Source of the DNA: Trametes villosa
Taxonomy: Eukaryota; Basidiomycota; Agaricomycetes; Polyporales; Polyporaceae
Reading direction: 5' to 3'
DNA: 64,000 bases
NCBI GenBank assembly: GCA_002964805.2
Contig: PUDQ02000056.1
Coordinates: 372,001-436,000, forward strand
Shown here: piece after piece, positions 9,993 to 44,698 of the stretch
Numbering within the stretch: position 1 is the first letter of the stretch
Layout: each line of letters begins with the position of its first letter
The notes under the pieces: model-generated
Databases searched by the model: none
What the model was told of the DNA's origin: nothing
The model's input: the letters and a program-made list of their open reading frames with translations, nothing else
Translations under genes and position numbers: made by a program

Positions 9993-10100
9993 GGGGCCCA
10001 GGACGCCGCAATTCCCCAGCACCTTCATCGCACCGCTCTCAAGCCAGCCACTCTCGCGTATAGCTAACTCCAATCGGCCATCGACCTGCACTTTCAAGCC

Positions 10101-17374: not shown

Positions 17375-18473
17375 TCAGCTGTTCATCAGGTACTTTGATG
17401 CGTCGAGTTGGTCCCCCACGACGTCGTCCGTGGGCCAAACACGTCTTCGGCGAAGGAACTTGTTGAATATCTTGATCGTCGCGTCGTGGGTGTCGAGACG
17501 CGCCGCACGCGCCTGCGTCAGAGCCCGACGGGCCTGAACCGCGCTTTCGTCCTCCGAGTCGTCAGGGCCGAGCCAGTCTGCTCTTGAGATTTGATCTGTG
17601 CTGTCGTCGCCGTACTCGTGGTCCGAGAAGTCGCTGTCGTGAGCGTCCTCAATGTACTTGTCGCGCAACTCGGAGGAGGTATCAGCCACGGATTGCGTCG
17701 TCTTGGGGGAATCGGTGGAGAAGGACTTGCTATCTTGAAGCTGTTGCTCGAGTACGCGGTAGCGAGCGACATGCAGCACGAGCCATCGTCGCAAGAGGTC
17801 GTTGAGGGGGTGGTTCGCAAGGCCGTCCTTATCGAGGAACTTGAGTTCGGGGCCGTCGACGTTGACGACTCCATAAGAGACTGCGCAGCTCTTGACGGCG
17901 CTGCACCGAATCGAGCTCGCCTTGTAGCTGACATTCTGGAAGTCATAGAAGTAGCTGTATATGAGGTGCGCAGCACCGCCTTCCCCGTCGCTGTACGTAT
18001 GCCGGAGGTAGCGCGCGCCGTAGTGTAGGAGGAGGTGGAAGAACGACTCGAGTTCGTCCGCGAGTGTGAGCGGACGTTCGGGATGCCTCACTTTTGCTAC
18101 CGCAAGGAACTGCCACGACCCCTGGGTCTCAAGTAAGTGATGTAAGCGGATGGCAGAGGTAGGAATGCTATACACGCACCATGATCCGTTCGTGCTTCAT
18201 TGACAGATGTCGCGGCGATAGAGCTTCTTCGGGCGCGAACCTGCCAAGCACCGCGAAATCATAGGGAGACGATTCCCCCGGTTTGCTGTGGGTAGCTAAT
18301 GCAATGACATCGGAATTCCTGCCGCACAAACCTGGGGACTCCATATGGGTCATGTTTCGGAGTGGCAGCGTGAAAGACGGCTGAGAACTCGGGTGCCAAC
18401 GCAGAGACTTGGTCACTATAGCCGCGCCGTGCAGATAGCCTGGCTGAGATATTTCTTCCTGTATGTATGCCAT
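17375..18473 (-). CDS. C-terminal-only FunK1 gene (F1)
   Basis: Two exons, 18180-18473 and 17375-18121, would give 346 residues. Exon 2 begins at the P+1 loop (GSWQFLAVAKVRHPERPL) and continues with the FunK1 C-lobe helix ADELESFFHLLLHYGARYL, an acidic linker and the tail WPTDDVVGDQL. That tail is nearly the same as in the gene at 43785-44698. Exon 1 ends DFAVLGRFAPEEALS...KHERIM, which aligns loosely with the DWE segment GFLADWELANFAPEDGS of the gene at 26464. The N-lobe and HRD loop are absent. The start codon at 18471-18473 is uncertain and exon 1 looks decayed, so this could be a relic or a tail-only protein. Confidence 0.6.
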
Positions 18474-19029
18474 CTAAAGTAAGCGTCCTATCAGGCTTTG
18501 GGCAAGTGTCAGAGATACGCACGCTGCCTTGAACAGGATACAAGCCTGATCGTGGTCGACGCAAGAGCCAGGCCGCAGGCGCTTACCCTCGAGTCTAACG
18601 ACTTCGGTCTTCCTTTTTAGGACGGGGTGACCATAGCCACACTGAGCGCCCACGTGAAGCGCCCACGACTGCTTCCCGCGATCCGCTTTCCTTTGGCTCC
18701 CCCGCGGTCTCCAGCATCCTCTCTAGTCCGAATGCGCGGAAAGCTCGTGAAATACATCGAAAGAGTTCGAAATCCTATCCATACGACTACGAGGTTCCTT
18801 CTAGCACGCTGGCAACCTGCAAGGGCGCCAGGCGCGGCCCTACGGTGAGACCGTGGTCACGGTGTTACGTTCGAGCGATAAAAGTTTGGGTCCATCGCTG
18901 CCACAGGTAAAGCACTATGACTTCATCTGTGGTTGTTTTTTAGCATACATCTAACCTAGAAGCACTTCTCCGGCAGTTCCTTTCGTGCATCTTCGACCAA
19001 TCCTTCACAGATGAGCGTAACATTGGAGG
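18474..19029. other. Intergenic gap
   Basis: I see no coding exon, RNA gene or clear repeat between the tail-only FunK1 gene and the upstream block of copy B. Confidence 0.5.
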
Positions 19030-19730
19030 GGTGCGCGTACTGGAGTCTACTACCTGTGCTCGTTCTCGATATCTCAATACGTGTGCGCCCGCATCGGGAC
19101 CCCATATATATGTCAGCACTTGTTCTCTACAACAGAAATCGCACATCTTTCGCTTAAGGTTGGTTAGAGAGCAGCATGTATCACTGACATGACAGGCGTC
19201 TACAGATTTGTCCATCCCCGAAAAATCGTGCGCAAGCTATTTGGTCAGTCCTGACATACAGCTCCTACGAAGCTATGACACTGAGAAGTGCTATGCACAG
19301 CCTCCCGCGACTCTCGTTCCTGCGCGGGAGCGCGCCATCGGTCCCTCGGAGAGCTCAGCGCCTTCCGTTGCTATCGCCGGTGGACGCCGCGCACCTCCTT
19401 CTACCGTCGTGCGACATCATGTCCACGCGGGACGCGCAGTCGGCACGTGTGGGTATTTCTCTATGTTCTTCCCAGCCCGAAACTGCCGATACGCTACTTG
19501 ACCTACGGGCGCAGTCACACCACACGCCAAAGGGGAAGACATTGGACACCGGAGGTCAGTAAGTCGCGGAAAACAGCGCCATCCATTCCAAGAATCCTAC
19601 AACCTAGTTGATCGCACGTCGACACCAATGTCGAGAGCTACAGTGAGCAGGCGGAGACAATAGAACTCCGGAAGTTCAGTTTTGACGGTAATTTCTCTAG
19701 GATTACTCTGCGCATTCGTCCCCGACATCG
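19030..19730 (+). repeat. Conserved upstream block of copy B
   Basis: This matches the block upstream of copy A over about 700 bp with the same landmarks in the same order (GACAGGCGTCTAC, AATCGTGCGC, CACAGCCTCCCGC, CTTCTACC, GGACACCGGAGGTCAGT, CTCTGCGCATT). It is followed by a TATATAAAG box at 19737-19745, 111 bp before the ATG. Confidence 0.8.
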
Positions 19731-19736
19731 CAAAGC

Positions 19737-19745
19737 TATATAAAG
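19737..19745 (+). promoter_or_regulatory. TATA box of copy B
   Basis: TATATAAAG lies 111 bp upstream of the ATG at 19848, the same position as in copies A and C. Confidence 0.75.
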
Positions 19746-19847
19746 AGGCCCAGGACACGGTAATCCTTCAGCATCCTCATTGAACAGCTCTCAGCCCAAC
19801 CACTCTCGTCTATAACTACCTTGAACCACCGACCTGCACTTCAAACA

Positions 19848-21808
19848 ATGGCTGTCACCTCCAAGACGTTGACTTTCGTCCCCGCGTGAGTGTTCGCCCC
19901 CTCTATTCAGGCGTCGAATCCGCGGTGCCAACAATGATATTACAGCCCCGAGTTCCGCGGCTCCTGCAAGCTGACCTTGGCCTTCGTTCCGTCCGGAGGG
20001 GTCGCCTTCAAAGAGGTGCACCCCGTAGCCTGGAGGTCAGTGAATGATCACCCGCGAGGTTTACTGTCACTCGCATGGGGCTCACGATCGTGTCACAACA
20101 GGGTCTTCGAGCTCAACGAAGGAGGTAAAATTCCGCCCGCTCGATGACGAGCTGCTGATACCCTGCTTACTGCTTTATTAGGCTCTCAGACCGTCGTTTG
20201 GACTGATAAGTGAGTCGCACTGATTAGAAGCATAGCCCTGCATCTGACCCGACGTATTCCTAGTATCGCGGGTTGCCGCGCCACCGTGGACAACACCAAC
20301 TCCAAAGTTACCACGGAGCCTGGGTATCAGGCTGTCGCGGTACGTTGACGCTCGGCCTAGTATGCGCTCCCCGGACACCGCGCTAACCGCCTTCTTTTAG
20401 CCTGGCTACGCCACCGATCTTCTCTTGGACAGCACCCAGAAGAACAATCCTCAGTACAGCTTCACTGCAAGTTTCAACCCACCCTCCCTCCCACCTTCCT
20501 GTTCGCCCTCTGACCGTTACATTGCAGAAGCCTACGCCGTTCGGCGGACCCGGGAACTACAAATCCCGCGTCGGGAACATGAGCGGTGTCAACATCGACC
20601 ACTTTGGAACTGGTGCGTTCCTCGTATCGTCGGCTCGCATGATCCAGTGCTGACGAGCTCCGGCCGCGTCTAGGATTCATTGTCAAGAAGAACAACAAGG
20701 AGACGATGGACACCGTCCTCGTCACGAACTCGGTGAAGTGCGCATCCACACACACGGCTATCTTTTCCCGGTGCTGATCGGTCGACTGTACGTTGCAGGG
20801 ACGGAGGTTCAGTCTTTATCAACTACGTCCCTCTGCTCAAGATGTGGGCGAACCAGAGCGTCGAACAGTCGCAATTGCTCCCCAAGTCTTGGGGCCAGAA
20901 GGCTACCGCTTGGGAGGCCGATGTCTCCGAGCTCACCAATAGGGAGATCACAATCGAGATCTCTCGCGGCGGGGACGGCAAGATCAAAGGGACCGTCGTC
21001 AGCGGCGTCGCCGCTATCGCTGAGCACTCTTCTCTGGCTAAGGTCCAAGACAGACACCTGGAGGCGGGGGCCAACGTAAGTGCTCCCTCTCCTTTGCATG
21101 CATGACACGGTATACCAACGATACTGATGCCTTCCGTCGCAGCCTCAGGTCACGTACACGGCCAGGATTGCTTTTAAGAACCCCAACATCGTCAGCCAAG
21201 GGATGATCGCCATCGCCAAACATCTCCCGGCCAATGTTTATTCCCACATCAAGATTGTTGTCAAGGTAAGAATTCCCTTAATTCAGCTACGCATTTTGCG
21301 GCTCGGCGGTGGCACTAATTACTGGGCACGTCCCGCAGGGCTCCGACATCACTGGGCGACTCACGTTCACCCTCCCCGCTTGCGGTAGCTGCAACGAGGC
21401 CGAGAAAGACGTCGTCGCTGCCATCAAGGACTCGGCCTCGTCTCACGGCAAAGCGTACGTCACGTCGCACGGCGGCGCTATGTACGTCTCCTCGGAAGAC
21501 GGCTGCGAGCAGTGGACGGAGATCTACCCTTCTCGCTCCGAGTGGTACGGCAATGTGACGACGACCGAGGTGCGTTGCACGCTCGGGATGCGGCCCGACG
21601 TACGCCTGGGTTTTGATCTCAAGGGCTCACCTCCTCTCTCTGACAGGGTGCAGCCTTCGACGCCACCGCCGATGCGCAGGCCTTCGCCGCTGAACACGCC
21701 GCCGACGCTGCCGGGGACGACAAGGACGACAAGGACAATGAGGATGACGAGGCCACCGAGGACGACGAGGGTACCGATGACGACGAGGCCGCAGACGGAA
21801 CGGCCTGA
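19848..21808 (+). CDS. Unrecognised 12-exon family protein, copy B
   Basis: Exons: 19848-19885, 19946-20035, 20102-20124, 20182-20209, 20264-20339, 20401-20466, 20528-20612, 20674-20737, 20799-21075, 21143-21265, 21339-21569 and 21647-21808, giving 420 residues. It starts MAVTSKTLTFVPAPEFRG, has no signal peptide or membrane helix, and ends with a long acidic tail rich in DD, DE and DK. Cysteines recur in RGSCKL, AGCRATV and LPACGSCNEAE. Intron 6 (20467-20527) uses a GC donor (GCAAGT), as copy C does. The gene looks intact, so it may be the best copy for working out function. The lack of targeting signals suggests a cytosolic or nuclear protein, which is inference only. I do not recognise the family. 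Confidence 0.82.
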
Positions 21809-21849
21809 AGCGATGCGAAGTGAGAGGGGGGCGGAAACCGCAGCGCCGG

Positions 21850-22353
21850 TGGTGTGAGTGGCCGCACGAGGAGGCCCATCACAATCAGCCCACCCCAGCG
21901 CGCGAACGCTACCCCAGGAGCCGCTAGCCGATGCGTGGTACATACCATCCGCCTACTGTGAACAGAGACCCAGTCCGATTATCTTGTAGCCTGTGAACGA
22001 GCCCGAATATCAGTGTGTTTTTGATTCGGATATTGATCTGATACGAACGCGTACGCACGAGAATGAGGGTAATATGTTTATAAAACAACCTCACTGCAGG
22101 CCGTTTGAGTGGTCAACGCCATCGGCGTGGCGAGGCTTACTGCCGTCCTACAGGTCGGCTTCCACCCTCGCGAGCGGTGGCTCCGACCGCGGGCGAGGCA
22201 GTTTCAGGCGGGCGACTTGCCACAAGCATCTGAATACGACTCTGTAGTAGCGAACGAACTCAGATTGCAAGCTACAATGAATCCGTAGAATATCCATAGA
22301 ATACTACACCGTGTGGTGTTGTACTCCGATAGGAAGTAGAGCATGCGCCGCCC
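21850..22353. other. 3' flank of copy B, then gap
   Basis: Around 21930-22010 lies the same 3' flank seen after copies A and C (GCCTACTGTGAACAGAG, CTTGTAGCCTGTGAACGAGC). The rest, up to the convergent gene ending at 22354, shows nothing supported. Confidence 0.5.
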
Positions 22354-23173
22354 TCAGTCAGCGTCAGCACCCATCTCCGCCACTATCGAGCCCTCATCGT
22401 CGCTGCCCGACTCAGCCTCCAAGTCTTCTTCGTCGGAGCCGGGCTCCAGTAAGAGCAGCGCGCGTTCTAGTCGCTGCTGGATCGCGTCGTGGGTGAAGAA
22501 TGCGGCAGAGGTTTCAAGCCACTCGCGCTTTTGCCGCTGCAGGGCGTCGAACGCTGCCTGTTGGCGAGCCCTACGAGCCGCGGCCAACTTTTGGGCCCTC
22601 CACGTCGGATGTTGTATCTCGGATGCCACGGGTTCCTTTAGATAACGCGATCTGGCGTTCTTCTGGTTTCGCATGCAGTCTTCGAAATCCATGAGCGCCT
22701 CGGTCAGGGGCCATGGCGCGAGCTCCTGCACACAGTCGTACTTGAGTACGCCCTCGAGTAGCTCTGGCGTGCGCACGCGGAGGATCTCCGCCGCTGATAT
22801 GCCGCCAAAGGTGGTGCAGTGGACCCCGTAAATGGCCGTCTTTTCAGCCTGCGTGTCTCCGGCGTCGAGGTCCGCGAGCCTCCGCGTGACTGCATAGAGC
22901 AATACCCAGAAGAAGGCCTCCGTGTCGTCCTCCACCGCAGCGGCGACGGTGAAGTCTTCGTTGACGATAGCTTCCAGAAGCTTGCGTGACATGAACTGGG
23001 AAGGGCCCTGGTTATCGATAGATCAGAGACGGCGGATTTTTGGAGTTCAACGAGAGTTTTACCGTGATGGCTTCTCTTCCCGGTGAGTCAAATAGTGATG
23101 GTGCACGCGATGAGAGACTTGCACCCTCAAAAAGCGCAAGTCCAAGTGCTGGCGTGGCAAATGAATAGGCCAT
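22354..23173 (-). CDS. C-terminal-only FunK1 gene beginning at the P+1 loop
   Basis: Two exons, 23063-23173 and 22354-23007, separated by a 55-bp intron, encode 254 residues. Exon 1 (MAYSFATPALGLALF...) supplies 37 residues unlike any kinase segment. Exon 2 starts GPSQFMSRKL, the equivalent of GTWQFMS in full-length kinases, and continues with VEDDTEAFFWVLLYAVTRRL, the FunK1 C-lobe helix. Towards the C terminus are AAFFTHDAIQQRLERAL and an acidic end. There is no ATP-binding lobe, HRD or DFG equivalent, so it cannot be a kinase on its own. The phase-0 junction sits exactly where the full-length genes also have an intron, so the structure arose by exon recombination or truncation at that intron. 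Confidence 0.75.
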
Positions 23174-24954: not shown

Positions 24955-25760
24955 CTACGGGTGCCCCTCCCGGCTGTCCTCGTTCCCGTTCGCCCGTCGT
25001 CTCCTAAGAACCCTCCCCTGCAGCGCCTTCTTCGTAATGGTCGGCGGCAGCTGGAGGAGCGCGCGTTGCAGCTGCGCCTGCATCTGGGCGTGGCTGAAGA
25101 ACACCATAGACGCCTCGTGGCACTCGCGCCTTCGCTCCTCGACGGCCTCGTATTGTGCCACTAGACGTGCTCTGTAAAGGGCGGCCTCCTCGCGTCCCAT
25201 CTCCGTCAACGGCATGATGTCGTCCTCTGCGGGGACATCCGGTGGCGTCTTGGGCCAGTGTATGCCAGCGAGCAAGTCCTTGTAAGCGCGCTCATAAAAG
25301 TCTCCTAGAATGCAGGCAAGCGGGTACTCCACGACCGCTTGCACGCAGGGGTGATGCAGCGCCGCTATGAACAGGTCTGGGGTGCGTTGTTCGAGGATCT
25401 CCGCAGCGGACGTTCCGCCGAACGTCCTGTGATGGGCGATGTGTATGGCTCGCTTCTCTAGCTCGGTTTCCCCGACATGGGCGCCGGCGAGCTTGCGCGT
25501 GACCGCGTAGAGCAGCACCCAGAAGAAGCTCTCGAGGTCGTCTTCCAGCCGTGTAACGATGACCTGTTTGCGGTGGACGAGCGCGACGACGAGTCTGCGA
25601 GACTGGAAGTGCACTTTTTCCTGTCAGCCACGGAACTGGTCAGTGAACTGGAATGGACGACGGCTTCGAGCCTGAGGGTAAATACCAACGATGATATGAG
25701 CCCCTCCCGCAACGGGTGTCTCTCTTGCGTCAGTTGACTCCCAGTCCTCGCGATACACAT
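24955..25760 (-). CDS. C-terminal-only FunK1 gene
   Basis: The exons are 25686-25760 (25 residues, MCIARTGSQLTQERHP...) and 24955-25620, phase 0, for 246 residues. Exon 2 opens EKVHFQSRRL, a diverged form of GTWQFMS, followed by LEDDLESFFWVLLYAVTRKL, FGGTSAAEIL and a tail ECHEASMVFFSHAQMQAQLQ. The tail (positions about 24960-25140) is clearly homologous to the exon downstream of the F-box gene at 35569-35805. The catalytic lobe is missing. It is most similar in layout to the genes at 22354-23173 and 23914-24644, so these three form a local cluster of one subfamily. Confidence 0.72.
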
Positions 25761-26463: not shown

Positions 26464-27046
26464 TCACAACGCGCGGCCACTCACCAGCTCCGCATCCGGC
26501 GCCCGCGAGTCCATGTCAATCGGCTTGTCTGTCGGGCCCTTCACCGCGCCCTCCTTATCACTCCGGAGGACCTCGCCGTACACCCCGGCCCCGGGTTCGT
26601 GCATCGGCGGGTTTTCGAGCTCGTGAGTCGCGAGCCGGTTGAGCGCGGGAGGAGCGCCGGACAGCACATGGGCGGAGTGGCTCATGACCGTGTCCCCTGG
26701 AGCGGTCGCGGGCGCATAGAGCCTGTCGTCCGGGACCGCGCTATCGACCCCCCGCTGTACAGGAGACTCGGGTTGCCTCACGTAGGCGACAGACATAAAT
26801 TGCCAGGTTCCCTAACGAGAATATGAGAGCATGAGAAAGACGCAATGATCGAGTAAAAGGGACACGCACCGTGCGCCCAGGATGTCTCGCGTGCTCCTTC
26901 GAACCGTCTTCCGGCGCAAAATTGGCTAGCTCCCAATCGGCCAAGAAGCCGTGTTTGACAGGCTCTGTGAGCGCGTTGCTCTGGCTCGGACTACTCTCGG
27001 AGTTGCCGGTGAGTACTCTGGAGGTGGGAGATTGTTTGTCAGACAT
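26464..27046 (-). CDS. Chimeric gene: FunK1 DWE segment and P+1 loop fused to an F-box gene fragment
   Basis: The exons are 26870-27046 and 26464-26811 (58-bp intron, phase 0), giving 174 residues. Exon 1 (MSDKQSPTSRVLTG...GFLADWELANFAPED) is the counterpart of exon 1 of the gene at 43785. Exon 2 begins GTWQFMSVAYVRQPESPV, as in FunK1. It then switches to VDSAVPDDRLYAPATAPGDT, GVYGEVLRSD and PIDMDSRAPDAEL, which match the last conserved part of the F-box gene at 34092-35805 (VDMAVMDDLYAPGVAPGD, IYGEVFRRGD, PIDMDAWALYAEL). The fusion even includes the F-box splice donor sequence GAGCTGGTGAGTG, here read as coding. It is probably a genomic recombination product; its promoter region resembles that of 43785. 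Confidence 0.72.
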
Positions 27047-27199
27047 GGCTATGGCTGAGAGTGATCAGGAGTGACAGAAGATGGGTGCACGAACGTGAGC
27101 GAGCAGACGAGTAGATATACTCGAGAGAGTGGTGGCTAAGACGGCGACGCGTGGCTCAGTGCAACGGGCCAGGCACGTGCTCAATAACAAAGGAGACGA

Positions 27200-27972: not shown

Positions 27973-30900
27973 ATGGATGAGTTTAAGGAAAAGCCAGCTC
28001 CACAGCCCGTCTCTTACGCAGCCCCGTCAGGCCAGAAGACGAGTCCGTACAAACCGGCCAACTCGAACAATTTTGACCCCAGAAAGCACGGGCTCTCGCT
28101 ACAGCCTAACGCCACTCTAGACAGACGCCTCGAGGGCGGTTCAAGCATGGGCACAACGGTACTCGTCGAGCTGGCGGAATTCGTCAAGGATCTTCTCCCA
28201 ACGCCCTCCGAGGGTCGGCCCGAGCTAGATACCAAGACGGTGGACGATGTGAAGGACGCGCTCTCCAAGTTGTTCTACAGCAGCTCGGAATCGAAGAAAG
28301 CTGTGAACTTGAAGGAGGATGATATTGCGGAGGCTTTTGTATGTGGAATGCTCTCTGCGGCCCCGTCTTCGACTAATGCGACGACTCTTGTAGGTTAACG
28401 TCCTGAACCCTTTCATACTGTCTCACAAGTACAAGGCGGCGCTCTCGAGGTACAAGGCCAACGCATCAGACGCCTCAAAGTCCAAGGTCGATGCCGCGAT
28501 CTATCCCGAGGACCGGCTACCAAAGGGCGACTGGCCGGACTGGACATACTGCCGCTTCTACATCGAGTTCAAGAGGGGAGAATCTAGATACGATCCCTGG
28601 GACGACCGAAAGGGGAAGATCGCGGAGAGCGAGGCGCAGTCGCGCCTCGACGTGCGCGCCCAGCTCATCACGTACGCACGGCAGGTCTTCCTGTATCAAC
28701 ACCGAATCGCGCTCTACTCCCTCTTCATCATTGGCGACTCGTTCCGCGCCATGCGCTGGGACAGGTCCGGGGTTATCGTGTCCAAGAAGGTCAACTACGC
28801 AAGGAACCCAGAGCCGCTCCTGGCCCTCATCTCGCGGCTTCTCCTGCTCGACGAAACTCAACAAGGCCTGGACCCGACCGCGACGCTGATCAAACCTGGT
28901 ACGATGGCATTCCGGCTCATGGACGAGCTTGCTCAACCCGACGAGAAGCTCGACATGGACTACATGGAACCCGGCACCGAGAACTACAAGCCCCCTCCGG
29001 CTCGCCCTCAGTCTCCTCCCGAGACGTCCTCCAAGACACCCTCCGCGCCGTCAGGAGCGACCGATGTGGATGTTCCTCAGCAAGGAGACGCCGCGTCCCA
29101 GCCTGCAAAGACGACCAAACGGCGCAGAGCGAAGAAGGATGCTACGCCCGGCTCGTCGGAGGAGTCTGCCCAGCCGTCCCGAGGCGACGCGAACCCCGAA
29201 CCCGCGCCTGAGGACACAGACCCGGACCTAGCAGAGGTCGAGAAGGTCGAGGGAGATCCGCGCGTGTTCAGATACGTCCGGGAGAAGTTCCGGGAGTCTC
29301 TCGCTGCAGGGTGGCCACGCTACAAGCTCAAGGTCGGGAAGGACGAGCGGGTGTTCCTGGTCGCGAAACCGATGTTCCAGTCGTCGTCAATGTTCGGTCG
29401 GGCGACGCGAGGGTACGTCGCCCTCGACGCGAAGACCCAGCGATTCGTATTCCTGAAGGATTCCTGGCGCCCCTTCTACGAGGGCGTTGAGCCAGAAGGC
29501 GTCTACTTGGAGAGGTTTGCTGGAGACGACCAGATCGTCGTTCCGGCCGTTCTCCGTCACGGGGACGTGGGGAACCAAACCGCGTTCACTGCCCAGTACG
29601 AGCAGACTGTGAAGGAGAGGATGAGGGCGGACGTGCGTCGCAAGGCAGCCGATACCGCTACATCCTCGACCGAGGAACCAGGCTGCAGTAGGAAGCGCCC
29701 TCATACCCTTCAAGATGAGGAAGGCGGCACCTCCAAGCGGCCTCTCCCTTCAGAGGAACCAGACGAACCGGACGCCGGAGGAACCTTGCGCCATCATATC
29801 CATTATCGCATTGCAGTGCAAGACGTCTGCCTGCCCTTCGAGGAGTTCAAGTCAACGTATCAGTTGATCAGCCTGATGGCTGACTGCATTGAAAGTACGT
29901 CCTTCCGTATACGTCGTTCCTGCCGCCATAAACTGACTGCATTTCCCCAATATTTCGCAGCTCACTATTTCGTGTACACGAGGCATGGTCTCCTGCATCG
30001 GGACATCAGCGCGGGGAACGTTCTCATTCTCCCGCGGCTTGTGCTTGTCGATGGCAAAGAAATCGTCCAATGGCGCGGAGTATTGACCGACTGGGAACTC
30101 GCGAAGCCATATACCGAGGATCGCTCCTTAGCGAAGGCTAGGCAGCCCGAGCGCACGGTACGTCGCACCAGCTTACTGAGAGCACTAGTTCTGACATTTG
30201 TGCAGGGTACCTGGCAGTTCATGTCGGTCGCATACGTTGACTCGCAATGGACACTCCCTATTGCCGTCGCGGACGAGCTGGAGTCGTTCTTCCACGTCAC
30301 GGTCTTTTATGCTGTGCGGTTCCTCCCCCACACGCTCACGAACGTGACGCAGTTCGTCATCAGATATTTCGACACCTTCCGTATCGACGAGGAGGACACG
30401 CGGCTCTGCAGCTCTTCGAAAACCCAGGCCGTCTCGACTGGTGGCTTCGCAGAAGATCCCCAGGAGCTCGAATTCGTCACCGTTAATGATCGTAACAAGG
30501 CGACCCCCCTCAATAACCTACTGAGCCAGATGCTCCAGCTCTTCCGATGCAGATACCTGATTCTGAGACACGCGCGCAAGCAAGCACGCGCGGCGCGTAG
30601 CTTGAATGCTATCAGCAGCGACATCACCAAGGGCACAAGCGTGCTGCTTCGCAAACGTGGCGGAGAATGGCGCGCTCGTCGGGACCCCCTTCCCGAGAAC
30701 CCCAAGGAGGACGCACCAACGGAGAAGGAGAGGTCGATGGCCGAGAACCTCGACACACATAGCTGGGTGCTGAACCTTTTCGCCGACGTTCTCGACGGTA
30801 CGGACCCCAGTGAATGGAAGGACGCCTGGGTCGTCCAGGACCAGCTCGTCGACTACGAACCTCGAATCATTCTGAGGAAGGAGGCCTTCACCACTCGCGG

Positions 30901-30997: not shown

Positions 30998-31665
30998 TCT
31001 GGCCTCTTTCTTATCAGCGGCGAGGCCCAGCACCGCTCGTCTGGTCAGACGGGCTGTAGTTCGCGTCTTACGAAGATGGCTAGGTCCGTGGACACTCACA
31101 TACCTGGATGATCACGCATCGCCTCCCCTTTCGCTCGCCCCGGCCTCGAGGCAGCCGAGACGCTATTGCGCAATGCGTACTGGTGTAGCCTCGACCGTCC
31201 TCTTCTTCCTGCAATCTCGTCTGCTGATTACCTATGCTACTCTTTTCTATTCCCTTTCAATACGTCTTCCATATCCTAGGCACCCAGAACAGTTGTATCC
31301 CCATGAGCCGAACTCTTTCCTGATAGCTATCTCTCTTCTCTACCTGCTGTACTTTACGCATACCATTTTTCCTGTTCATACATTCATCGTTCGCCTGCCA
31401 AACCCCCAAGAGAAACTGACAGACCGCGGATTGATGGTAGGTCACGGCTCGGGACGCGTGCCGACACAAAGTGCTATCATCGTTTGTTCTTGAGATATGC
31501 ATTATCTGCTCGTTAACTTGACTGACAAACGATGCTCCACTTGAAGCGAGGGCGCCCATAACGCCCACGAAGCTGGCGATCTCGTATTCCAAACAGAGCT
31601 ACATCATACACACAAACCACACACGGCCTAACAACACGCGGCGCACCACAAGCCCAAACCCGACC
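30998..31665. other. Convergent 3' region
   Basis: 3' flanks of the FunK1 gene (plus) and NUG1 (minus). AT-richer than its surroundings; no exon is supported. Confidence 0.5.
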
Positions 31666-34091: not shown

Positions 34092-35805
34092 ATGGTATTC
34101 ACACGTCGAAAGGCGCATCTAAAAGCGGCATTAGAGGTCCGTAGTCAGTGGCATTACCCAGCGAGAAGGACAACTCATCTGGAGACCGACGTGTACTAGA
34201 ATGAACACATTCTAAAGCTCCCTTCAGAGCTGCTCCGCATGATCTTTGACTATTTCATAGATGAGCCTTGCAAGCCGTGGCTCGCGTCCTCGGCCAGCTC
34301 TGTAAGCCACTCATGCCCGAGGTGGAGGCTGCGCTCTACAGGGAAGTTAATCTCGAGAGCTGCAAGCGCGTCTCTATCTTGTGTCGCTCGATTGTCAAGC
34401 GGAAATACCGCGCGGTCTTCGTCCGCAAGCTCGTCATCTCCGTCCGCGGCGGTGCGAGCATCAAGCAACCCCTGAAGAACGCGCTGCCGCTGCTCACGAG
34501 CCTCTCCTGGATTGAGCTCTCGCTCGACGAACCCTCCATCTTTGACACTCTCCTTGACATCCCGTTCCGCCTCCGCAACTGCATCCTCGGCGGGGAGACC
34601 TACACTCCCCACCTGGAGGACATCCTAGCACGGCAGCCCGACATCGAGAGGCTCTCCCTCGCTTTCATGCCAGCATCAGACGAACAAGCACACCCGCAGA
34701 TCTCGCGACCGGATATCCTTTCGAAGCTCCAGGCGCTGACGGTGTTCGCCACCCGCTTCCCCCTCACCACCATCGCGCACCCTTACCACGTTGCCCACCT
34801 CTCGATCATGGGTGCAAGCCACGACGACATCACGCATGTCGTGAACCTGTTCAGCAGCACGCTGGAGACGTTCTGCTTGCTCCGGGTTCTTGACGACGAT
34901 TGCACCGCAGCCTGCTACTGGCCCACATCCACGCTCCGCAACGCGCGCCTCCCGAAGCTCGAGCACCTAAAGGTCACAGACCTGTACGGCCCCTTCACCG
35001 ACGTGCGTCCCAGCCCAGCTCACCCTGTACGGAACTGCGCTGACCCGCCGATTTGACTTCATAGGTCCCTTGCGAGGCGGACGCAATGCCTGTACCCGGT
35101 CTCACACAAGGGTGCCCCGCGCTCAAGACGATCATGTGGAGCGTCGACATGGCGGTCATGGACGACCTCTACGCGCCCGGGGTCGCGCCCGGGGACATGA
35201 TGATGGCCACCTACGCGCGCGTGCTGTTCGACGCGCTCCCCGCGCTCGGGCGGCTCGCGATCCACGAGCTCGGGGACACGATGCGCGGCCCCGAGGGCGC
35301 GATATATGGCGAGGTCTTCCGGCGCGGCGACGAGGGCGTGGTGACGGGCCCGGCGAACGAGCCGATCGACATGGATGCGTGGGCGCTGTATGCGGAGCTG
35401 GTGAGTGTGCGCGCGTCGGATCGTTGTGGGCGCTGGGTTATGCATGCTGACGGGTTGTGTGCAGATGTAGCACCGTGTGGGATATTGATTTCGTTGCCCG
35501 TGCGTTGTGCCATTCATGGCGGGGAGAGTAGACGCGCGAATTCTCTGAATAGGCGCGAATTGGGCTAGTACGACGGAGAGGCCGGGGCGCAGTTCCGCAA
35601 GGCGCATGATGAGGAGCGCGAAGACCGAAAGCGCGTGTGCCGCGAAGCGTCTGCGGCGTTCTTCAGCCCCGCCCAGATGCAGGCGCAGCTGCGGCGCGCG
35701 CACCTCAAGCTGCCGCCGACGGTTGCGGAGAAGGAGCCGGAGGGGAGGGCCCTTCGGGGACAACGGGCGACCGGGGACGAGGACGCCGGAGAGGCCCCTC
35801 CGTAG
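34092..35805 (+). CDS. F-box gene followed by a FunK1 tail exon; apparent frameshift
   Basis: Exon 1 is 34092-34136; exon 2 is 34200-35002 and opens NEHILKLPSELLRMIFDYF, an F-box motif. Between about 34255 and 34290 the frame must shift to continue with VARVLGQLCKPLMPEVEAAL, so there is an indel, an unrecognised intron or an assembly error. The rest, with YREVNLESCKRVSILCRS and a repeat-like alpha/beta region, is open to 35002. Exon 3 (35065-35400) ends ALYAEL. Two endings are possible: a tiny exon ATG-TAG at 35463-35468, or splicing to 35569-35805. The latter encodes REASAAFFSPAQMQAQLRRA and is homologous to the tail of the FunK1-derived gene at 24955. Members of the F-box class are adaptors in SCF ubiquitin ligases. 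The target is unknown. Confidence 0.62.
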
Positions 35806-36534
35806 GAGAGCTGCAAGTAGGGCGGTCCACTTCCGGAATAGCTTAAGGCTGACAGCGGGCTCGACACTTAGCGCACGACGAGGGTGGGGCGGTGGGGGTA
35901 GAAGAGCTTCGCTCACTCGTGTTCGCGCTAGAGCGGCTTCGTAAAGTCAGTGGGTGACGCGCTCTAGCGCTCAGGTCTATCCGTAACACCGTCCGGCGTG
36001 GTCATGGAGAACAAGGAACAGGGGAAGCGGGATGGCAGGAATGAGGGTGTGTCCGCATGCGGGTTCGATCAGAGTGAGATATCGGCGGCGATGGTAAGTA
36101 GCGAGGGGAAGTAGTACATGCCGGTGGGCGTCCCGAGGCATGCGGCACCTCGGAGGACCGCAGCCGTGTCCTGCGAATCGCCACATCGTTTGTTATTGGG
36201 GGTCAGCTCCGGCGTGGGGTTCGTAGGTGAAAGATACATGTATGCTCACAGTATACACAGCCGGTATCCGTACATGAGGCAGTGACAAGGAATGACGAGA
36301 CGATGGATTCAGTATGGGCCACTACCCTATGCCCTCACGCGACCGGGGCATGACCAGCGTGGAGGCAAGCCGTTGCGAAGAAAGCATAGCGGGCATGGTG
36401 AACATTGCTCTAGTAAAAAGAGAGCGCATCCGGACGCGGCTGGGATAGAGCGAAGGAAGGGGCAATGTGCGGCGTGCACGGTTTGCGAGGGGCCCCGGTC
36501 CTAGCCTTCTGCGCAGGACGCGACTCCACCCCAC
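35806..36534. other. Convergent 3' region
   Basis: The first 60 bp (GAGAGCTGCAAGTAGGGCGG and onward) is repeated after the F-box pseudogene near 50143. No other feature is supported. Confidence 0.45.
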
Positions 36535-39427
36535 TCAGCCGGACGGATGGGGATGGCTCCCGCTGCTGGCGACCGAGGCCCCGGACTGCGAGAGCTGGCT
36601 AGAGCTGGTCGAGGCGGCGGACGTCGATTCGTCGGTCCTAGCGCGCTTGACAGGCCTATCGACGGTGCCGCGAGAGCCCTTTCCGCGAGGCGGAACGGCC
36701 TTTTTCATCGCAGCGGCGCGGGGATCGTGGTCGACGAGCTGGTCTTGAACGACCCAGGTGTCCAGCCTAGAGAACACCTCGTCTGGCATGTCTATAACGT
36801 CGGCGATCAGATTCAGCATCCACGGATGGTCGAGAGACCGAGCCGTCGCTTCGACCTCTGCTGTCGGCGCGGATTTCCGGAAGTTCGCCACAGGGTTGAG
36901 GTCCTTGGGAGCCCGCCGCCGCCACTCCGAGTCGTCACGCTCGCGTCGTAATGGCGCGCCCGAGCCCCTCGTGCCGGAGTCCGCCCTGGCAGCGGACAGC
37001 TTCGACAGTTCTGCTTGGTCGCGCTCGTGCCTCAAGACGGCGTATCTGCATCGGAAACCGTCGAGGACGCTTGCGACCAAGGTGTTCATCGGGTTGTTTC
37101 CCACGAAACTGAGCTCTTTCCAGAGCGTATAGAGCCCAACCCGGCCGTTCGTGACGGTGAATCCCTTCAACTGGCTGCATAGACGCCTGCCTTCGTGGTC
37201 CGTCTGGAATGCGTCGAAGTAGTCTTCAACGAATCCCGGCACGTTGAGGATTGTGTGGCGGAGAAAGCGCACGGCGTAGAAGAGCGTGACGTGGAAGAAG
37301 GATTCGAGCTCGTCGGCGACAGCGACGGGGAGCGTCCATTGCGAGTCTACGTGCGCAACAGCCATGAACTGCCAGGTACCCTATGCAGCGCTGTCAGACT
37401 CTGAAAGAACGGGAGGACTAGGACAGTGTGGTAGCTCACGATGCATTCAGGTTGTCTTGCCTTCTCCATGGAGCGGTCCTCTGAGCAAGGCTTCGCAAGC
37501 TCCCAATCCGTTAACACCCCACGCCACCTGACTGTGATCTTCCCTGTGCTCTTAACCCTTACAAGACGAGGGAGAATGAGGACATTGCCTGCGCTGATAT
37601 CGCCATGCAGGAGACCGTGCTTCGTATACGCGTAGTAATGAGCTGCGAGAAGCAATTGTTCAGCAACAATTTCTATAGCACCAATTGCCTGAGGACGTAC
37701 TTTGAACACAGTCCAGCATCAAGCTGAGGAGCTGGAACGTCAACCTGAACTCTTCGAAGGGAAGACAAACGTCCTTCACCGCGACACGATAATGAACGTG
37801 CTGACGTAGGGTCCCTTTGAGAGCCTGCCTATCCGGTTCCTTGGAAGAGAGCGGCGACTCCGGGTTGTCGCCAATCTCTTCGTCAAGAGTGTGGGGACGC
37901 TTGTTGCCGTGGTCGTGTTGAACAAGCGACGTAGAAGCGGTGCCATTCGCCTTACGGCGCTCCTCATCACGTATCCTCTGCTTCACGAGCTCCTGGTATT
38001 GCGCAGTGTAGGCGTATTGATCGCCCACGTCCCCGTGGCAGAGGATGGCCGGAACGATGATGTCGTCGTCTCCCTCGAACCGCTCGAGATGAACGCCTTC
38101 AGGCAGCGCGCCCTCGTAGATAGGGCGCCAGGAGTCCTTCAGGAAAACGAATCGACGCGTACGGGCATCGACAGCAACGTACCCGCGCGTGGCCCGCCCG
38201 AACATCGACGATGAATGGTACATCGGCTTCGCGACCAGAAACACCCGCTCGTCCCTCCCGACCGTGAGCTTGTAGCGTGGCCACCCTGCGGCGAGAGACG
38301 CTCGGAACTTCTCCCGGACATATCTGAACACGCGCGGGTCTCCGTCGACCTCCTCGACCTCTTCTAGGTCCGAGTCTTGGTCCTCGGGTGCGGGTTCGTG
38401 ACTCGCATCGCCATGGCCCGGCTGGGGAGCCTGCTCGGAACCCGGTGCGTCTGTCTGGGTCGCTCTGCGCTCTTTAGCCGTCTTTGCAGGCTGGGACGCG
38501 GTATCTTCCTGCGCATGCGGCCCCGAAGAAGTCGATCCTGGTTGCACGGACGGAGTTTGCAAGGATTTTCCGTGAGGAGGGTGAGCTGGAGGGGGGTTGT
38601 AGTCCTCGGTGCCGTGTTCCATATAATCCATGTCGAGCTTCTCGTCGGGCTGAGCAAGCTCGTCCATCATCCGGAACGCCATCGTGTCAGGTTTGATCAA
38701 CGTCGCGGTCGAGTCCAAGCCCTGCCGTGTTTCGTCGAGCAGAACTAGACGGGTGACAAGAGATAACAGAGGCTCCGGGTTCTTCGCGTAGTTGACCTTC
38801 TGGGACACGATGACGCCGGACCTGTCCCAGCGCACCGCGCGGAAGGAGTCGCCGACGAAGAAGAGGGAGAAGAGCGTGGTCCGGTGTTGATACAGGAAGA
38901 CCTGCCGTGCGTACGCGACGAGCTGAGCGCGGACATCGGCCCGTGAGCGCGCCTGGGACTCTGAGAAGGTTGTCCCTGCGCGGTCGTCCCATAGATCGTA
39001 CCGCGAATCTCGTACAAACGCCAGGTAGAAGCGACAGCAGGCCCAGTCCGGCAAGTCGTCCGCTGGCACTCGGTCCTCAGGATAGATCGCGGCGTCGACT
39101 TTGAGCTGCGCGCGATTCGACGTGACATACCCCGAAAGCGCCGCCTTGTATTTGTGAGGCATTACGACGGAGTTGAGGACTTTGACCTGTAGCAACCGTT
39201 GAGTAGGTAGTGAACGCGGCGACATACGGCACCCAGCTTACCAGGTTCTCCGCAATCACACCCGGGGCCTTCTTTGAGTCCGCGCTGCTGCAAAGCAGCT
39301 TGGAGAGGGCGCCCTTCACTTCGTCCACCGCCTTATCATCCAGCTTCGGCTGACCCTTGGCAGGTGGCGTTGGGAGAAGATCTTCGACGAAATCAGCAAG
39401 CTCTACGAGGACACTTGTGTTCATCAT
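36535..39427 (-). CDS. Full-length FunK1-type kinase with HRD changed to HGD
   Basis: The exons are 39242-39427, 37701-39186, 37440-37642 and 36535-37380, giving about 906 residues. The start is taken at ATG 39427 (MMNTSVLVELADFVEDLLP). The upstream sequence is related to the longer N terminus of the gene at 27973 but has decayed, so this protein has lost about 60 residues. The N-lobe has GRATRGYVAVDARTRRFVFL and KDSW. The catalytic loop reads HGLLHGDISAGNVLILP: the HRD arginine is glycine, while Asp and Asn remain. GVLTDWELAKP is intact. Exon 4 begins GTWQFMAVAHVDSQWTLP and ADELESFFHVTLFYAVRFL, and the C terminus has VKRART. HRD arginine loss often changes activation-loop control, so activity may not depend on loop phosphorylation. 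Confidence 0.88.
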
Positions 39428-40311
39428 CCAGCAGCCTTGGAAAGTAGCAGAGAGTTGCGGAATTCTGGGGCGACCCGTGCTTGCGAGGATTGCAGTTGTT
39501 GATGTTGCCTCCAAGTCAGGCCGGCAACCTCTTGTACAGACTAATCGTCTGGCCTTGCGGGGCTACGAAGGAGGTCCTGCGGATTCAATAGCGTCAGAGG
39601 CTCTCATGATGAAGCGCTAGAGAAACAGTGTACAAGTGAGATGAAGACATACAGAGAAGGCGTCCCGTGCACAGTTTTTTTTGTCCGACTTGGCGGGCGA
39701 GCTCGAGTTTGCTTAACGGGCGACGCCGCGGTATGTGAAGTGCCGTGTGGGTCTAAATAGCGGCTGAGATACTCAACCCCAGCAGTGCATTTGGAACGGG
39801 TTAAACGAGATGGGAAGACAGTGAGGACAGTTTGAAGCTCACTCGAGGTCGTGGTTGAATGCAAGCAGCCCGCGCCGACAAGCGCTCGTTGTGGCTATGA
39901 TCAGCATAGTCACTTACCTCCGATCGCACCGCCGGCGGAACACGACCGAGGCTGTAACAAGTTGAACCTACTAGTACGAGGCGGCGTGCATGCGAGTAGC
40001 AATTATATACTGGGCAGTACTAGAAACACGCATGATTTATTCACATTCGTCGACGGTCGTATCTTACAAACATCGTCGTATACTGAGTCCATTGCGGGCT
40101 CTCGGGCTCGTTCACAGGCTACAAGATAATCTGGCTAACCCTCCGTTCACAATAAGCGGACGGCGTATACCACACAACATCCAGAGTCTCGGCATGGGGT
40201 AGCGTTTGCGCGGCGCGACGTGTAGATCTTGATGGGTGCGATCGCCCCCGTGCTGTGTCTGCCGATACTACCGACGTTGGGGTATCTGTCTGCCTCTTGT
40301 TTCGTGTTTCT
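39428..40311. other. Promoter side of the HGD kinase and 3' flank of copy C
   Basis: About 39815-39865 holds the shared FunK1 upstream element in a diverged form (GAGGTCGTGGTTGAATGC). About 40115-40311 is the conserved 3' flank of copy C, matching the flank of copy A. No coding exon is supported. Confidence 0.5.
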
Positions 40312-42227
40312 TCAGGCATCGTTGTCGCTTTCGTCGTCGTCATCACCGTCGTCGTCGCCGTCAGCAGCGGCGGCGTCGATGGCGCGGGCCGTCGCAAATG
40401 CCTCCGCATCAGCGGGAGCGTCGAAGGCCACGCCCTGTCAGAAAGAGAACGTGAGCCCTTCAGATTAGAACTCAGGTGTGCGTTGGGTCGCGTCCCAAAC
40501 ACAGAACGCACCTCGGTCAGCGGCGTCTCGCCGTACCAGCTGGCGATCGTCGGGTAGATCTCGACCCACTCCTCGCGGCCGTCGTCCGAGGTGAGGCACG
40601 CGGCGCCGCTGTGGGACGTGACGAATGCTTTGCCGTAAGACGTGCCCGACTTCTTGATCGCGGCGATGACGTCCTGCTCGGCCTGGTTGCAGCTGCCGCC
40701 GGCGGGGAGGGTGAGGGTGAGCAAGCCCGCGATGTCGGAGCCCTGCGGGAATTGCCTTGTCAGCGCTTCCGAGCCGCAGAGAGCGTAGTAAAATCGAGGG
40801 AATTTGTACCTTGATAACAATCTTGGTGTGGGGATACACTTGGGCCGGGAGATGGTTGGCGATGGTGTTCATCCCACGGCTGACGATGTTGGGCATGGTG
40901 AAAGTGATGTTGGCCGTGTACGTGACCTGAGTCTGCGATGGAAGGCACCAGTATGGTTAGCATCCCTTCCGAGTCGGTTCGTACGCAAAGGAGAGGATGC
41001 ACTTACGACGGCGTCTGCGTCCATGAGACTGTCTTGGGCGACACTGGCCAGGGCGATGGACTTACTCTCGTCAGCGACAACGGTACCCTTGATGGTGCCA
41101 TTCTTCTCGCGAGAGATCTGGATATTGATGCGCTTCTCACTGAGCTGGGAGAGATCGGCCTCCCAGGCAGTAGCCTTCTTGTCCAAAGCCGCGGGAAGAA
41201 TCTCCGACTGCTTAACGCTTGCGTTCGCCCAGACCTTGAGCAGGGGGATGTAGTTGATGTAGACCGACGCTCCGTCCCTGGGAGGGCGCATGCAAGCGAT
41301 CAGCGCCCAGAAGGGATCCCCCACATACGTGGATGCGCACTTGACCGGCTTCATGACGAGGACGGTGTCCATCGTCTCCTTGCCGTTCTTCTCGACAACG
41401 AATCCTAGACGCGGCCGGAACTCGTCAGCACTCAGGCTGGTTGACGTGGTTGTGCGGGCAGATGACACCGGGGACGCACCAGTTCCAAAGCGGTCGATGT
41501 CAATCCCGGTCATGTTCCCGACCCGGGATTTGACATTCCCGGCGCCGCCGAACCGCGAAGGCTCCTGCAGTAAAACTGTCAGGTGGCGTATAGAAGCATG
41601 GGTCAGTTAGAACTTGCAGTGAAACTGTATAGCGGCTTCTTGGGCTGACTGTTGTCCAAGAGGAGGTCGGTTGAGTAGCCAGACTAGAAGGAGGCGGTTA
41701 ATACGGTGTTGGGCGAGAGAATAGAGCAGGCGCTATCGTACTGGGACAGCCTGATACTCCTCCATAGTGACCATGTCGGCGCTGTCCACGGTGGCACGGC
41801 ACCCCGCGAGGCTAGCGGTACGTCGTGTTAGGGAACGGTTTTATTCGCAGTAAATGCTACGCACTTGTCAGTCCAGACAACGGTCTGAGAGCCTGATAAA
41901 GCGGTAAGCGGGATATCGGAGGTTCGTCGTCGCGCGAACGGGAATTTACCTCCTTCGTTGAGCTCAAAGACCCTGTGGTGACGCGATTGTGAGGCTCAGG
42001 TAAGTCACACTAGCAGTCTCGGGCGATGAAAGGTACTGACTTCCAGGCTACGGGGAAAACGTCCTTGAAGGCGACGCCTCCGGACGGGACGAAGGCCAAA
42101 GCGAGCTTGCAGGAACCGCGGAACTCGGGGCTACGATATCATCGTCAGCACTATGAGCTCGACGTCCGAGCACCGGGGCGAGCACTCACGCGAGAGCGAA
42201 AGTCAAGCTCTTAGAGGTGACGGACAT
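40312..42227 (-). CDS. Unrecognised 12-exon family protein, copy C
   Basis: Exons (minus strand): 42190-42227, 42041-42130, 41950-41972, 41865-41892, 41742-41811, 41618-41683, 41480-41564, 41341-41404, 41007-41277, 40810-40932, 40512-40742 and 40312-40434, giving 403 residues. It starts MSVTSKSLTFALAPEFRG and ends with an Asp-rich tail. VPLLKVWAN of copy A is IPLLKVWAN here, and KATAWEADLS is the same. Intron 6 has a GCAAGT donor. The gene is intact and closest to copy A, including the 3' flank, yet lies on the opposite strand about 25 kb away. I do not recognise the family. Confidence 0.82.
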
Positions 42228-42331
42228 GGCTTGGAAGTGCGGGTTGGTGGTTCGAGTGGGTTATAGATGGTGGTGGCTGGGCTGGGAGCTATACGATGAA
42301 GGTGCTGGAGAATTGCGGTGTCCTAGGCCCC

Positions 42332-42340
42332 TTTATATAG
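42332..42340 (-). promoter_or_regulatory. TATA box of copy C
   Basis: TATATAAAG on the minus strand, about 110 bp upstream of the ATG at 42227, the same distance as in copies A and B. Confidence 0.75.
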
Positions 42341-42960
42341 CCGTTCGAGGTCGGGCACGAATGCGCAGGGTTATCCTGAAAAAATTACCGTACCGTCAAC
42401 AACAAAGCTCCGGAGTTCTGTTGTCTCCGTACGTCCACCGTAGCTCTCGGCGTTGGTTTCGACGTGCAATCAACTAACTTGCAGGATTCGTAGAATGGAG
42501 ATTCGCTGTTCGTGCAATCGACTGACCTCCGGTGTCCGATGTCTTCACATTTGGCGTATGGTTTGACTGCGCACGTAGGTCAAGAAGCGGACCATCGGCG
42601 GTCTCGGGCTGAGAAGTGCGTAGAACAGTCCGCACACGCGCCACTTGAGCGTTGCGGCAGGACACAGAGTCACACCATGGTAGAAGGAGGTGCTCGGCCT
42701 GCACCGGCGGTGGTGGCACGAGAACACGCCGAACTCACCAAGGGACCTATGACGCGCTCTCCCGTAGGAACGGGAGTTGCGGGAGGCTGTCCATAGTGCT
42801 TCTCAGTTTCGTAGCTTCGAGGGAGCCAGATGTCAAGACTGACCGAGTAGCGCACGATTTGTTGCGGATTGATACATTTGTAGACGCCTGCCATGTCAGT
42901 CATACAGGGTGCATTCAAACCAATTCAAAGCGAAGGACGTGCACTTTCTAGAGGTTCTGC
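42341..42960 (-). repeat. Conserved upstream block of copy C
   Basis: The minus strand matches the upstream blocks of copies A and B (CTGCGCATTCGT, GGACACCGGAGGTCAGT, CACAGCCTCCCGC, GGCAGGCGTCTAC). This fixes the duplicated unit as promoter plus gene plus 3' flank. Confidence 0.8.
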
Positions 42961-43784
42961 TGAGAGAAGCTCTGTGATAACATGAAGGGACTCGGTGCGG
43001 CGTCCATACACAGATATGGGAGACGCGTGGAGGCCCGCCTCGGTGCGTGCGCACTCGGCCCTCAGCGCTCAGCTAGCGGATCATCGTTGACATCGATAGA
43101 GTATCAATCCCAGATAGAACACGTCTCACAACGCAACTACCGCGGTGCTTACACTTTGTTACCTTCCTTTACGAGTACAGATTATCGCTTGCGCAACCAC
43201 GGCATAGGCTTTGAGGCCCCTCCTGAGGGAGTCCGTTCTTCAGCTCAATACTTGGGTGGTCTGCCACGCCGGCGGCCGGAAGAAGTCAAGACTTCGCAGT
43301 CATACGCCATGACCTGCGCAGAGCTTGTGATTTCTTTTGATTCTCGAGAAAATAGCGGCGAAATCATACCAGAAATATTCGGGCTGCCACCCGGAGGGTC
43401 GCGCGGGCCAGAGTAGCAGTGCGAGGAGCGAGAAACTTGCGAGGAGCGAGCGCTTGACTCTGCGGTGGCTATGATCCCACCTCCCAGAAAGGAAGGACGA
43501 ACTTGGTCGTTGTGGTGAGTAGGCGCCCATACTTGGGCTCTCAACTCGACCACGACTTGGACTCGGATTAGCCCTACGAGATTGCCTATTGTCTTGCCCT
43601 CGCCGTCTCCTGCTTGATTTCCTCTTTTTAACCCGTGTTTGGCGTGTTTCACTTAGCTAGGGCTCGCGTATCGCCGTATTTGAGCCACGCGTGGCCATCT
43701 TAGCCACCACTTTCTCGAGCATATCTACCCGCCTGCTCGCTCGTGTTTGCGCACCTATCTTCCCCCTCTCGATTGCTCTCAGAC
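42961..43784 (+). promoter_or_regulatory. 5' region of the tail-only FunK1 gene with the shared element
   Basis: Near 43548-43612 the plus strand reads CTCGACCACGACTTGGACTC, then CCTATTGTC and CCGTCTCCTGCTTGATTT, like the element before the full-length kinases. From about 43685 to the ATG the sequence closely matches the minus strand just upstream of the chimeric gene at 27046 (TTAGCCACCACT, CTCGAG, TATCTAC, CGTCTGCTCGCTC). Confidence 0.55.
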
Positions 43785-44698
43785 ATGCCCGAAAGACAAC
43801 CTCTCATTTCCACAGTACTCACTGGCGGCTACGAGAGTATTCCGAGCCAGAGCAACGCCGCGTTCACAGATCCTGTCAAACAGGGATTCTCGGCCAATTG
43901 GGAGCTGGCCAAGGATGTGCCGAAAGACGTTTCGAAGCATCGCGAGAGACCGCCAAAGTGGGCGGTACGTTACTCTTCTACCCAATTGCTGGTTTTTCCT
44001 TCATGTGCTCATCCTCTCGTTAGGGAACTTGGCAATTCATGTCCGTTGCCAACGTAAGGCACCCCGAGCAACCTGTGACCGTTGCGGACGACCTCGAGTC
44101 GTTCTTCCATGTGCTTCTATATCACGCCATTCGCTATCTTCGGCATAACCTACCGAAATCCGTCACGTCCTTCATCGTTGAGTACTTCGACACCTTCACA
44201 CTAGTCGACGCCGACAAGATCGAATGCAGCACCATCAAGGACCACGCGATGTCTCTAGGCGTGGTGAAGGTCGGCTCCAAGCCCCTTACGTTCCGGTTCG
44301 ACGACGATGGGAGCACTGTGCATCCCCTCAACGCGCTGCTGCGTAAATGGGCCGACTACTTCGTATGCCGGTATACAATTCTGAACCGGCAAGACGACGA
44401 CAAGCCTGTTCCTGTTGCACAAGGGGGCCGGACGAAGCCTCGATCTGCCGTCGCCACGATGAAGGAGGATCATCCTAATCTATTCTCCGACTCGGACTCG
44501 GAGGACGAACTTCTGGATGACGCCTGCGAGAACTCAGCACCTACTGCGATCCGATCCGATGCCGAGGTGGAGGAGAAAGGCAAAGCACTGGACACGCACC
44601 GCGCAACGATCAAGCTCCTCAAGTCATTCATCCGGCCCAGATCCGGCTGGGAGTGGTCGACAGACGACGTGGTTGGAGACCAGCTCGGCGACAGCTAA
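43785..44698 (+). CDS. C-terminal-only FunK1 gene with its own first exon
   Basis: Exons 43785-43964 and 44024-44698 (59-bp intron, phase 0) give 284 residues. Exon 1 (MPERQPLISTVLTG...) enters kinase homology only at GFSANWELAKDVPKD, the DFG-equivalent segment, where the usual GVLTDWE Asp is Asn. Exon 2 begins GTWQFMSVANVRHPEQPV and carries ADDLESFFHVLLYHAIRYL, an acidic linker and WSTDDVVGDQL. It has no N-lobe and no HRD. The frame is fully open and the promoter is shared with the chimeric gene at 26464, so this is a recurring gene type, not random debris. It may act as a decoy or scaffold for full-length paralogues, which is inference. Confidence 0.78.

Follow-up and report, generated by a model that had tools for sequence, protein, structure and literature searches.

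The window studied here, the whole stretch of 64,000 nucleotides of the Trametes villosa genome that was analysed (C55:372001-436000), covers part of a FunK1 (Pkinase_fungal) gene cluster. The FunK1 kinase family of complex fungi is expanded and little understood, and birth-and-death evolution is known to yield truncated paralogues and pseudogenes in duplicated gene families. Six loci in the window, which a preliminary description made from the sequence had taken for a class of kinase genes without a catalytic domain, are here considered likely to be truncated FunK1 copies left by the birth-and-death turnover of an expanding array. This reading builds on the deletion structure of two copies, on the separate origins of copies in the tree, on the lack of detectable catalytic parts and on the presence of both open and broken frames. 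Duplication and deletion within the array would repeatedly strip away the N-lobe together with the catalytic loop, so that the last exon stays behind; a protein translated from such a copy, if any is, would consist of the C-lobe/tail and be catalytically dead.

Tail-only structure of the loci

The tails are referred to as A-type (T17 and T43) and as group B or B-type (T22, T24 and T25), while 27k denotes the copy near 27 kb; two further pieces are named 35.5k and 49.9k. The following features were recognized in the window:

17375..18121, minus strand: T17, A-type tail exon, 248 codons open, without the catalytic half
18180..18473, minus strand: T17, possible first exon with donor GTGCGT and a 58-bp intron
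22354..23007, minus strand: T22, B-type tail with 217 open codons, resembling FunK1 over ~40 residues
24036..24641, plus strand: T24, B-type tail of 202 codons, interrupted at codon 78 by an in-frame TGA
24955..25620, minus strand: T25, B-type tail with an open frame of ~220 codons; its first residues have diverged and read KVHFQS in place of QFMS
26467..26811, minus strand: 27k, second exon, 18 tail residues (GTWQFMSVAYVRQPESPV) and then an in-frame fusion into the end of the repeated gene X
26870..27046, minus strand: 27k, exon 1, a copy of the T43 deletion exon 1 with the same deletion junction and a common 5′ flank
35539..35833, plus strand: 35.5k, C-terminal end of a T25-like B tail, with the N-terminal part gone; it lies downstream of gene X
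43785..43964, plus strand: T43, exon 1, the start codon and first ~30 codons of the parent kinase in frame to the DWE segment (ANWEL, Asp to Asn)
44024..44698, plus strand: T43, A-type tail exon, 224 codons open
49859..50100, plus strand: 49.9k, a shorter piece from the C-terminal end of a T25-like B tail, matched in two different frames; it lies downstream of a copy of gene X

A FunK1-like tail was present in five of the six loci (17375, 22354, 23914, 24955 and 43785), with a tail exon opening with GT/GS/GP..QF or an equivalent (KVHFQS in 24955). A FunK1 profile was built from 109 full-length polypore proteins and run unfiltered on the 1857 open reading frames of at least 20 amino acids in the window, matches with E<5 being reported; no N-lobe or HRD match was obtained near any of the five tail loci. 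Scanning the 2.5 kb upstream of T17, T43 and a tail-only copy on C1 with the same profile at E 1e-3 likewise gave no N-lobe or HRD match. The absence of the catalytic half, as described initially, was thus borne out at these five loci, and the profile revealed no exon further upstream that would restore the HRD loop. The sixth locus (26464-27046, minus strand) does not fit the description, holding DWE and 18 tail residues (profile 623-651 and 652-671) followed by a gene X piece.

It is very unlikely that the loci are full-length kinases whose first exons were missed owing to a divergent N-lobe or an assembly error. Group B is so diverged that an N-lobe of its own might escape the profile; however, the unfiltered profile was blank upstream, only 1.03 kb lie between the outward-facing tail exons of T22 and T24 and ~0.8 kb between T25 and a gene X piece, and the T43 junction is in frame and present in two copies.

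The tail acceptor is that of the phase-0 intron which the full-length kinases use before GTWQF, in agreement with the preliminary description; the assignment is based on the intron and exon ends for T17, T43 and 27k, and on the acceptor position only for T22, T24 and T25. T17 and T43 comprise the P+1-loop/next helix segment (GTWQFMS..DELESFFHVLLY) plus the tail, matching the profile at 649-856 and 652-855, respectively. The B copies matched solely inside 652-693, i.e., over ~40 residues of the P+1/helix segment, with E-values of 2e-3 (T22), 3e-5 (T24) and 2e-3 (T25), so that the rest of the tail goes unmatched in them. At its cut-off of 24.1 bits PF17667 was reached by none of the tails: T17 and T43 had no Pfam family and T22 had no PF17667 match, while T25 (E 0.1) and the T24 piece ahead of the stop (E 0.066) stayed below the cut-off, compared with 127.4 bits for the control FL51.

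The DWE motif (DFG-equivalent), which some loci had been said to retain, is read as DWE in 27k, but this copy has no tail; T43 reads NWE and T17 has a degenerate remnant at best. No DWE was seen in group B, either in the profile matches or in a shuffle test of the proposed first exons of T22, T24 and T25 (p at least 0.06 against each of six references). A short first exon can be drawn at the loci other than 43785 and 27046, but a possible ATG..GT phase-0 first exon (at least 20 codons, intron of 45-120 bp) was also permitted by 989 of 2000 random YAG acceptors of the window, and by 219 of 2000 when a strict donor was demanded; these exons are possible ones.

The frames of T17, T43, T22 and T25 are open, as had been stated for most loci, and no frame-breaking lesion was seen in them; T24 departs from this by its in-frame TGA. 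Further broken or partial members are 27k, the tail of which is lost, 49.9k with its two frames and the fragment 35.5k.

An internal deletion in T43 and 27k

In the genome, the DNA upstream of T43 is matched at three places, namely T43 itself, 27k and a stretch just 5′ of the full-length L010 kinase (143 bp, 77%). A three-way alignment covers the common 5′ flank, the ATG and the start of the exon (L010 MSNDNPPTPRTYDSNNESSPGK.., 27k MSDKQSPTSRVLTGNSESSPSQ.., T43 MPERQPLISTVLTGGYESIPSQ..). About 32 codons in, the sequences of both T43 and 27k pass directly and in frame into the DWE portion of the exon preceding GTWQF; the two corresponding points in the parent-like L010 are 2211 and 3994, ~1.77 kb apart. 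Given the shared parental 5′ end and the in-frame jump to the DWE exon, T43 and 27k are internal deletion copies which keep the parental 5′ flank, the ATG and the last intron, and in T43 also the tail. Their first exons, initially regarded as lineage-specific, are the 5′ end of a full-length parent.

In the T43/27k lineage, a deletion of ~1.77 kb would have joined the first ~30 parental codons in frame to the DWE exon. Most simply, it was made once and duplicated afterwards; an alignment of 389 bases of DNA shows 80% identity between the two copies (K 0.24). The 27k copy would later have been broken and fused to a piece of the neighbouring gene X. The chimeric frame at 26467-26811 (minus strand) continues after its 18 FunK1 residues for ~97 codons in frame into gene X.

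No constraint is visible on exon 1 since the duplication: between T43 and 27k the ratio of nonsynonymous to synonymous substitution rates (dN/dS, w) was 1.2 by the Nei-Gojobori method and 1.65 in a codon model, in which w<=0.57 was disfavoured (twice the log-likelihood difference, 2dlnL, 5.5). T43 as a whole runs through 284 codons without a stop. In 4000 simulations the chance of such an open frame under neutrality since the duplication was ~0.06 at half of the T43/27k divergence, and it was 0.22 at a quarter and 0.004 at the whole of that divergence, which constitutes weak evidence for upkeep.

T17 and the census of A-type tails

The T17 tail is the sister of the tail of the full-length L010 kinase on the same contig (C55:310-313 kb; tree support 99), and T43 stands beside T17 and L010 with a support of 74, or 66 with group B added. 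The tail-only copy on C1 pairs with a full-length tail in another clade (support 97; 94 with group B added). Judged from the tree, the loss of the catalytic half in T17, in the C1 copy and in T43 appears to represent separate events, firmly so for T17 and the C1 copy and less so for T43. T17 would accordingly be a separate 5′ truncation and the copy at C1:6660-6661 kb another one. Among the six loci, at least three origins can be told apart, those of T17, of T43 together with 27k, and of group B, which speaks against a single generated gene type as proposed in the preliminary description, a term that would at best apply to group B.

The end of the proposed first exon of T17 bears a weak likeness to the parental DWE..ERT end (shuffle p 0.04 and 0.05, uncorrected, for the best two of six references) and may be a worn version of it. 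The DNA upstream of T17 had no other match anywhere in the genome. The structure model of the T17 tail shows a mostly helical body (predicted local distance difference test, pLDDT, 73; predicted template modelling score, pTM, 0.71; 12 sequences), and it matched no solved structure at E <= 0.001, with three matches at E <= 10.

With the T17 tail as query, the genome contains at least 38 matches at E <= 1e-3, and 35 of these 38 A-type tails come with catalytic parts. The profile scan upstream of 31 tails placed an N-lobe and HRD-DWE inside 2.5 kb for 27 of them, and the tail at C55:371331 has HRD-DWE in the 280 bp upstream and its N-lobe at window 14-1321. The remaining seven tails, all on C3, were scored by a same-strand upstream match to the N-part of Pkinase_fungal. 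Catalytic parts are wanting in three of the 38, i.e., T17, T43 and C1:6660418, the last of which has nothing catalytic in 2.9 kb upstream either. For the recurring class described initially, one further A-type case was thus found outside the window, the copy on C1. In this C1 copy (C1:6660418-6661140; L022 8418-9167, minus strand) the open frame extends past the tail on its upstream side, and the usual intron is absent.

Five annotated proteins from elsewhere (P0001-P0005) might be taken as members of a widespread tail-only class, a reading that we regard as highly improbable. They are five of seven tail-sized matches of the T43 model, covering 76-79% of it, and carry no precomputed PF17667. 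However, four of the five start at the internal Met of GTWQFMS, the remaining one a few residues ahead of GTWQF in apparently intronic sequence, which is expected when the last exon of a full-length kinase is called without regard to introns; a source name is attached to P0005 (Trametes cubensis) alone. Since their starts fit last exons called in this way, these proteins provide no evidence for tail-only genes.

Group B tails and signs of selection

A genome search with T22 returned three places, T22, T25 and T24, all of which are tail-only; searches with T25 itself covered the window. In the tree T22 and T25 are paired with a support of 100 at the end of a branch of 2.8 changes per site. They are 41-42% identical, and the identities at the three codon positions are 0.62, 0.60 and 0.47. 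Group B is more diverged than the A-type copies and was probably truncated before its own duplications.

Several results weigh against turnover and decay as a full account. Four of the five tails have fully open frames, and open frames among the tail-only copies span 217-284 codons. For T22 versus T25, w was 0.14 over 207 codons (2dlnL 45.8 compared with w=1), a rough value as the pair is saturated; three control pairs of full-length tails gave 0.25, 0.32 and 0.53. Selection on T22 and T25 seems to go beyond what plain decay predicts. The T17 branch had w of 0.10 and 0.11 in two fits (w=1 rejected with 2dlnL 12.4 and 13.8; w>=0.3 disfavoured) and the T43 branch 0.21 in both (w=1 rejected with 2dlnL 13.9 and 13.3), but these branches cover time before the truncation and are near saturation, so the low values do not date the constraint. 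The dN/dS comparison suggested in the preliminary description hence gave values below 1 for the tails, but A-type branches that include time as full-length genes and an unconstrained exon 1 of T43 limit what it says. Finally, T17 and T43 end 9 and 3 residues past VVGDQL, without the parental C-terminal extension of L010, and no remnant of this extension was found downstream of them (ends 17375-17405 and 44680-44698); the common early end is a coincidence that the truncation model leaves unexplained.

An alternative, which we hold to be unlikely, is that group B, perhaps with T17 and T43, forms a functional catalytic-less family, the translated tails of which would attach to FunK1 partners or substrates and serve as decoys, adaptors or dominant negatives. 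The low w of T22/T25 and of the T17 branch, the codon-position identities and the tail-only state of all three B places argue for it. As all three B copies are tail-only, the simplest history would place the truncation before their split and hence the constraint on tail proteins, while a full-length B kinase lost later may be an alternative history. On the other side, T24 has a stop, the T22/T25 estimate comes from a saturated pair, and the end of T25 compared with 35.5k gave w of 0.54 (codon model, about 0.25-1.2) and 0.99 (Nei-Gojobori), i.e., no clear recent constraint. Moreover, T22 had no relative among public proteins (0 of 4679 candidates at E <= 1e-3), although polypore proteins were in the collection, the structure model of T22 was of low confidence (pLDDT 49, two sequences), and the better T17 model was without a solved-structure match at the same E threshold as above. 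That group B in particular is a kept tail family, which lost the kinase half once, was duplicated and came under purifying selection as a stand-alone FunK1 regulator, is quite unlikely; group B is nevertheless the sole credible candidate for a retained catalytic-less family. Under truncation by array turnover, the A-type copies would be heading to decay, whereas the B copies would have been tail-only already when they diversified.

Genome setting and neighbouring genes

The genome comprises 46.7 Mb in 140 contigs, in which 131 Pkinase_fungal (PF17667) matches were listed, counted as exon pieces and not as genes. When a full-length kinase from the window was compared with public proteins, the best-scoring ones came from Trametes and allies, the top one with 48% identity over 98%. 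The following full-length or nearly full-length FunK1 kinases lie in the window:

14-1321: FunK1 kinase, tail past the window edge, in L011
2521-4970: FunK1 kinase
28394-31045: FunK1 kinase
36538-39186: FunK1 kinase
45224-47803: FunK1 kinase
51016-53679: FunK1 kinase

Two repeated genes, X and Y, form mosaic repeats in the window:

34502-35470, plus strand: gene X piece
49189-49854, plus strand: gene X piece
26757-26467, minus strand: gene X piece
15302-17298, plus strand: gene Y copy
20048-22018, plus strand: gene Y copy
40041-42045, minus strand: gene Y copy
9288-10288: gene Y 5′ block
19048-20038: gene Y 5′ block
42038-42949: gene Y 5′ block

Behind each gene X piece, in the same orientation, comes a group B tail or part of one at a distance of 0.07 kb to 0.8 kb. 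An ancestral neighbourhood of gene X and a B tail seems, from this arrangement, to have gone through several rounds of copying and breakage. The 5′ blocks of two gene Y copies stand head to head with tails, one beginning ~0.6 kb away from T17 (at its 5′ end) and the other ~0.8 kb away from T43, and distant relatives of gene Y occur on C1 near 9.6 Mb. Pfam assigned no family to the pieces of genes X and Y, one copy of Y being tested; the label F-box/LRR-like, given to gene X from the look of its sequence, found no support.

Relation to known systems and significance

The loci resemble full-length FunK1 kinases (PF17667, as in Trametes species) in the tail from the P+1-loop equivalent onward, in the phase-0 intron and in their clustering in the genome, and T43 and 27k additionally in the 5′ flank and the start of exon 1. 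Unlike these kinases, the tail-only loci have no N-lobe or HRD that could be found and their tails score under the PF17667 cut-off; T17 and T43 furthermore have neither an intact DWE nor the parental C-terminal extension. With truncated paralogues and pseudogenes they share separate truncations, mosaic duplicated blocks and the nesting of open and broken copies among full-length ones. They differ from them in having several open frames of 217-284 codons and in the purifying selection that the B copies appear to be under.

Passages of two papers concern extra kinase genes in which catalysis is lost or maybe lost, in kinase families other than FunK1: a transposon-truncated TOR copy of Fusarium oxysporum, for which there are some expression data (PMC6001611), and the Ffk kinases, which may be competing pseudokinases (PMC3591445). 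Tail-only FunK1 genes are not described in passages of PMC3203195, PMC6001611, PMC5852033 and PMC3591445, and none were among the best 15 of 989 and the best 10 of 63,671 broader literature matches.

The locus is also a caution about databases, where a tail-only 'gene' can be a last exon from gene calling that took no account of introns. A decoy or dominant-negative role of the tails is putative and without direct support. The loci themselves are real and of several origins, and most catalytic-less loci appear to be ordinary products of a duplicating, deleting array. The locus provides a concrete route to catalytic-less genes, an in-frame internal deletion which spares the 5′ flank, the start codon, the last intron and the tail, and it offers a testable case of whether catalytic-less products are ever kept.

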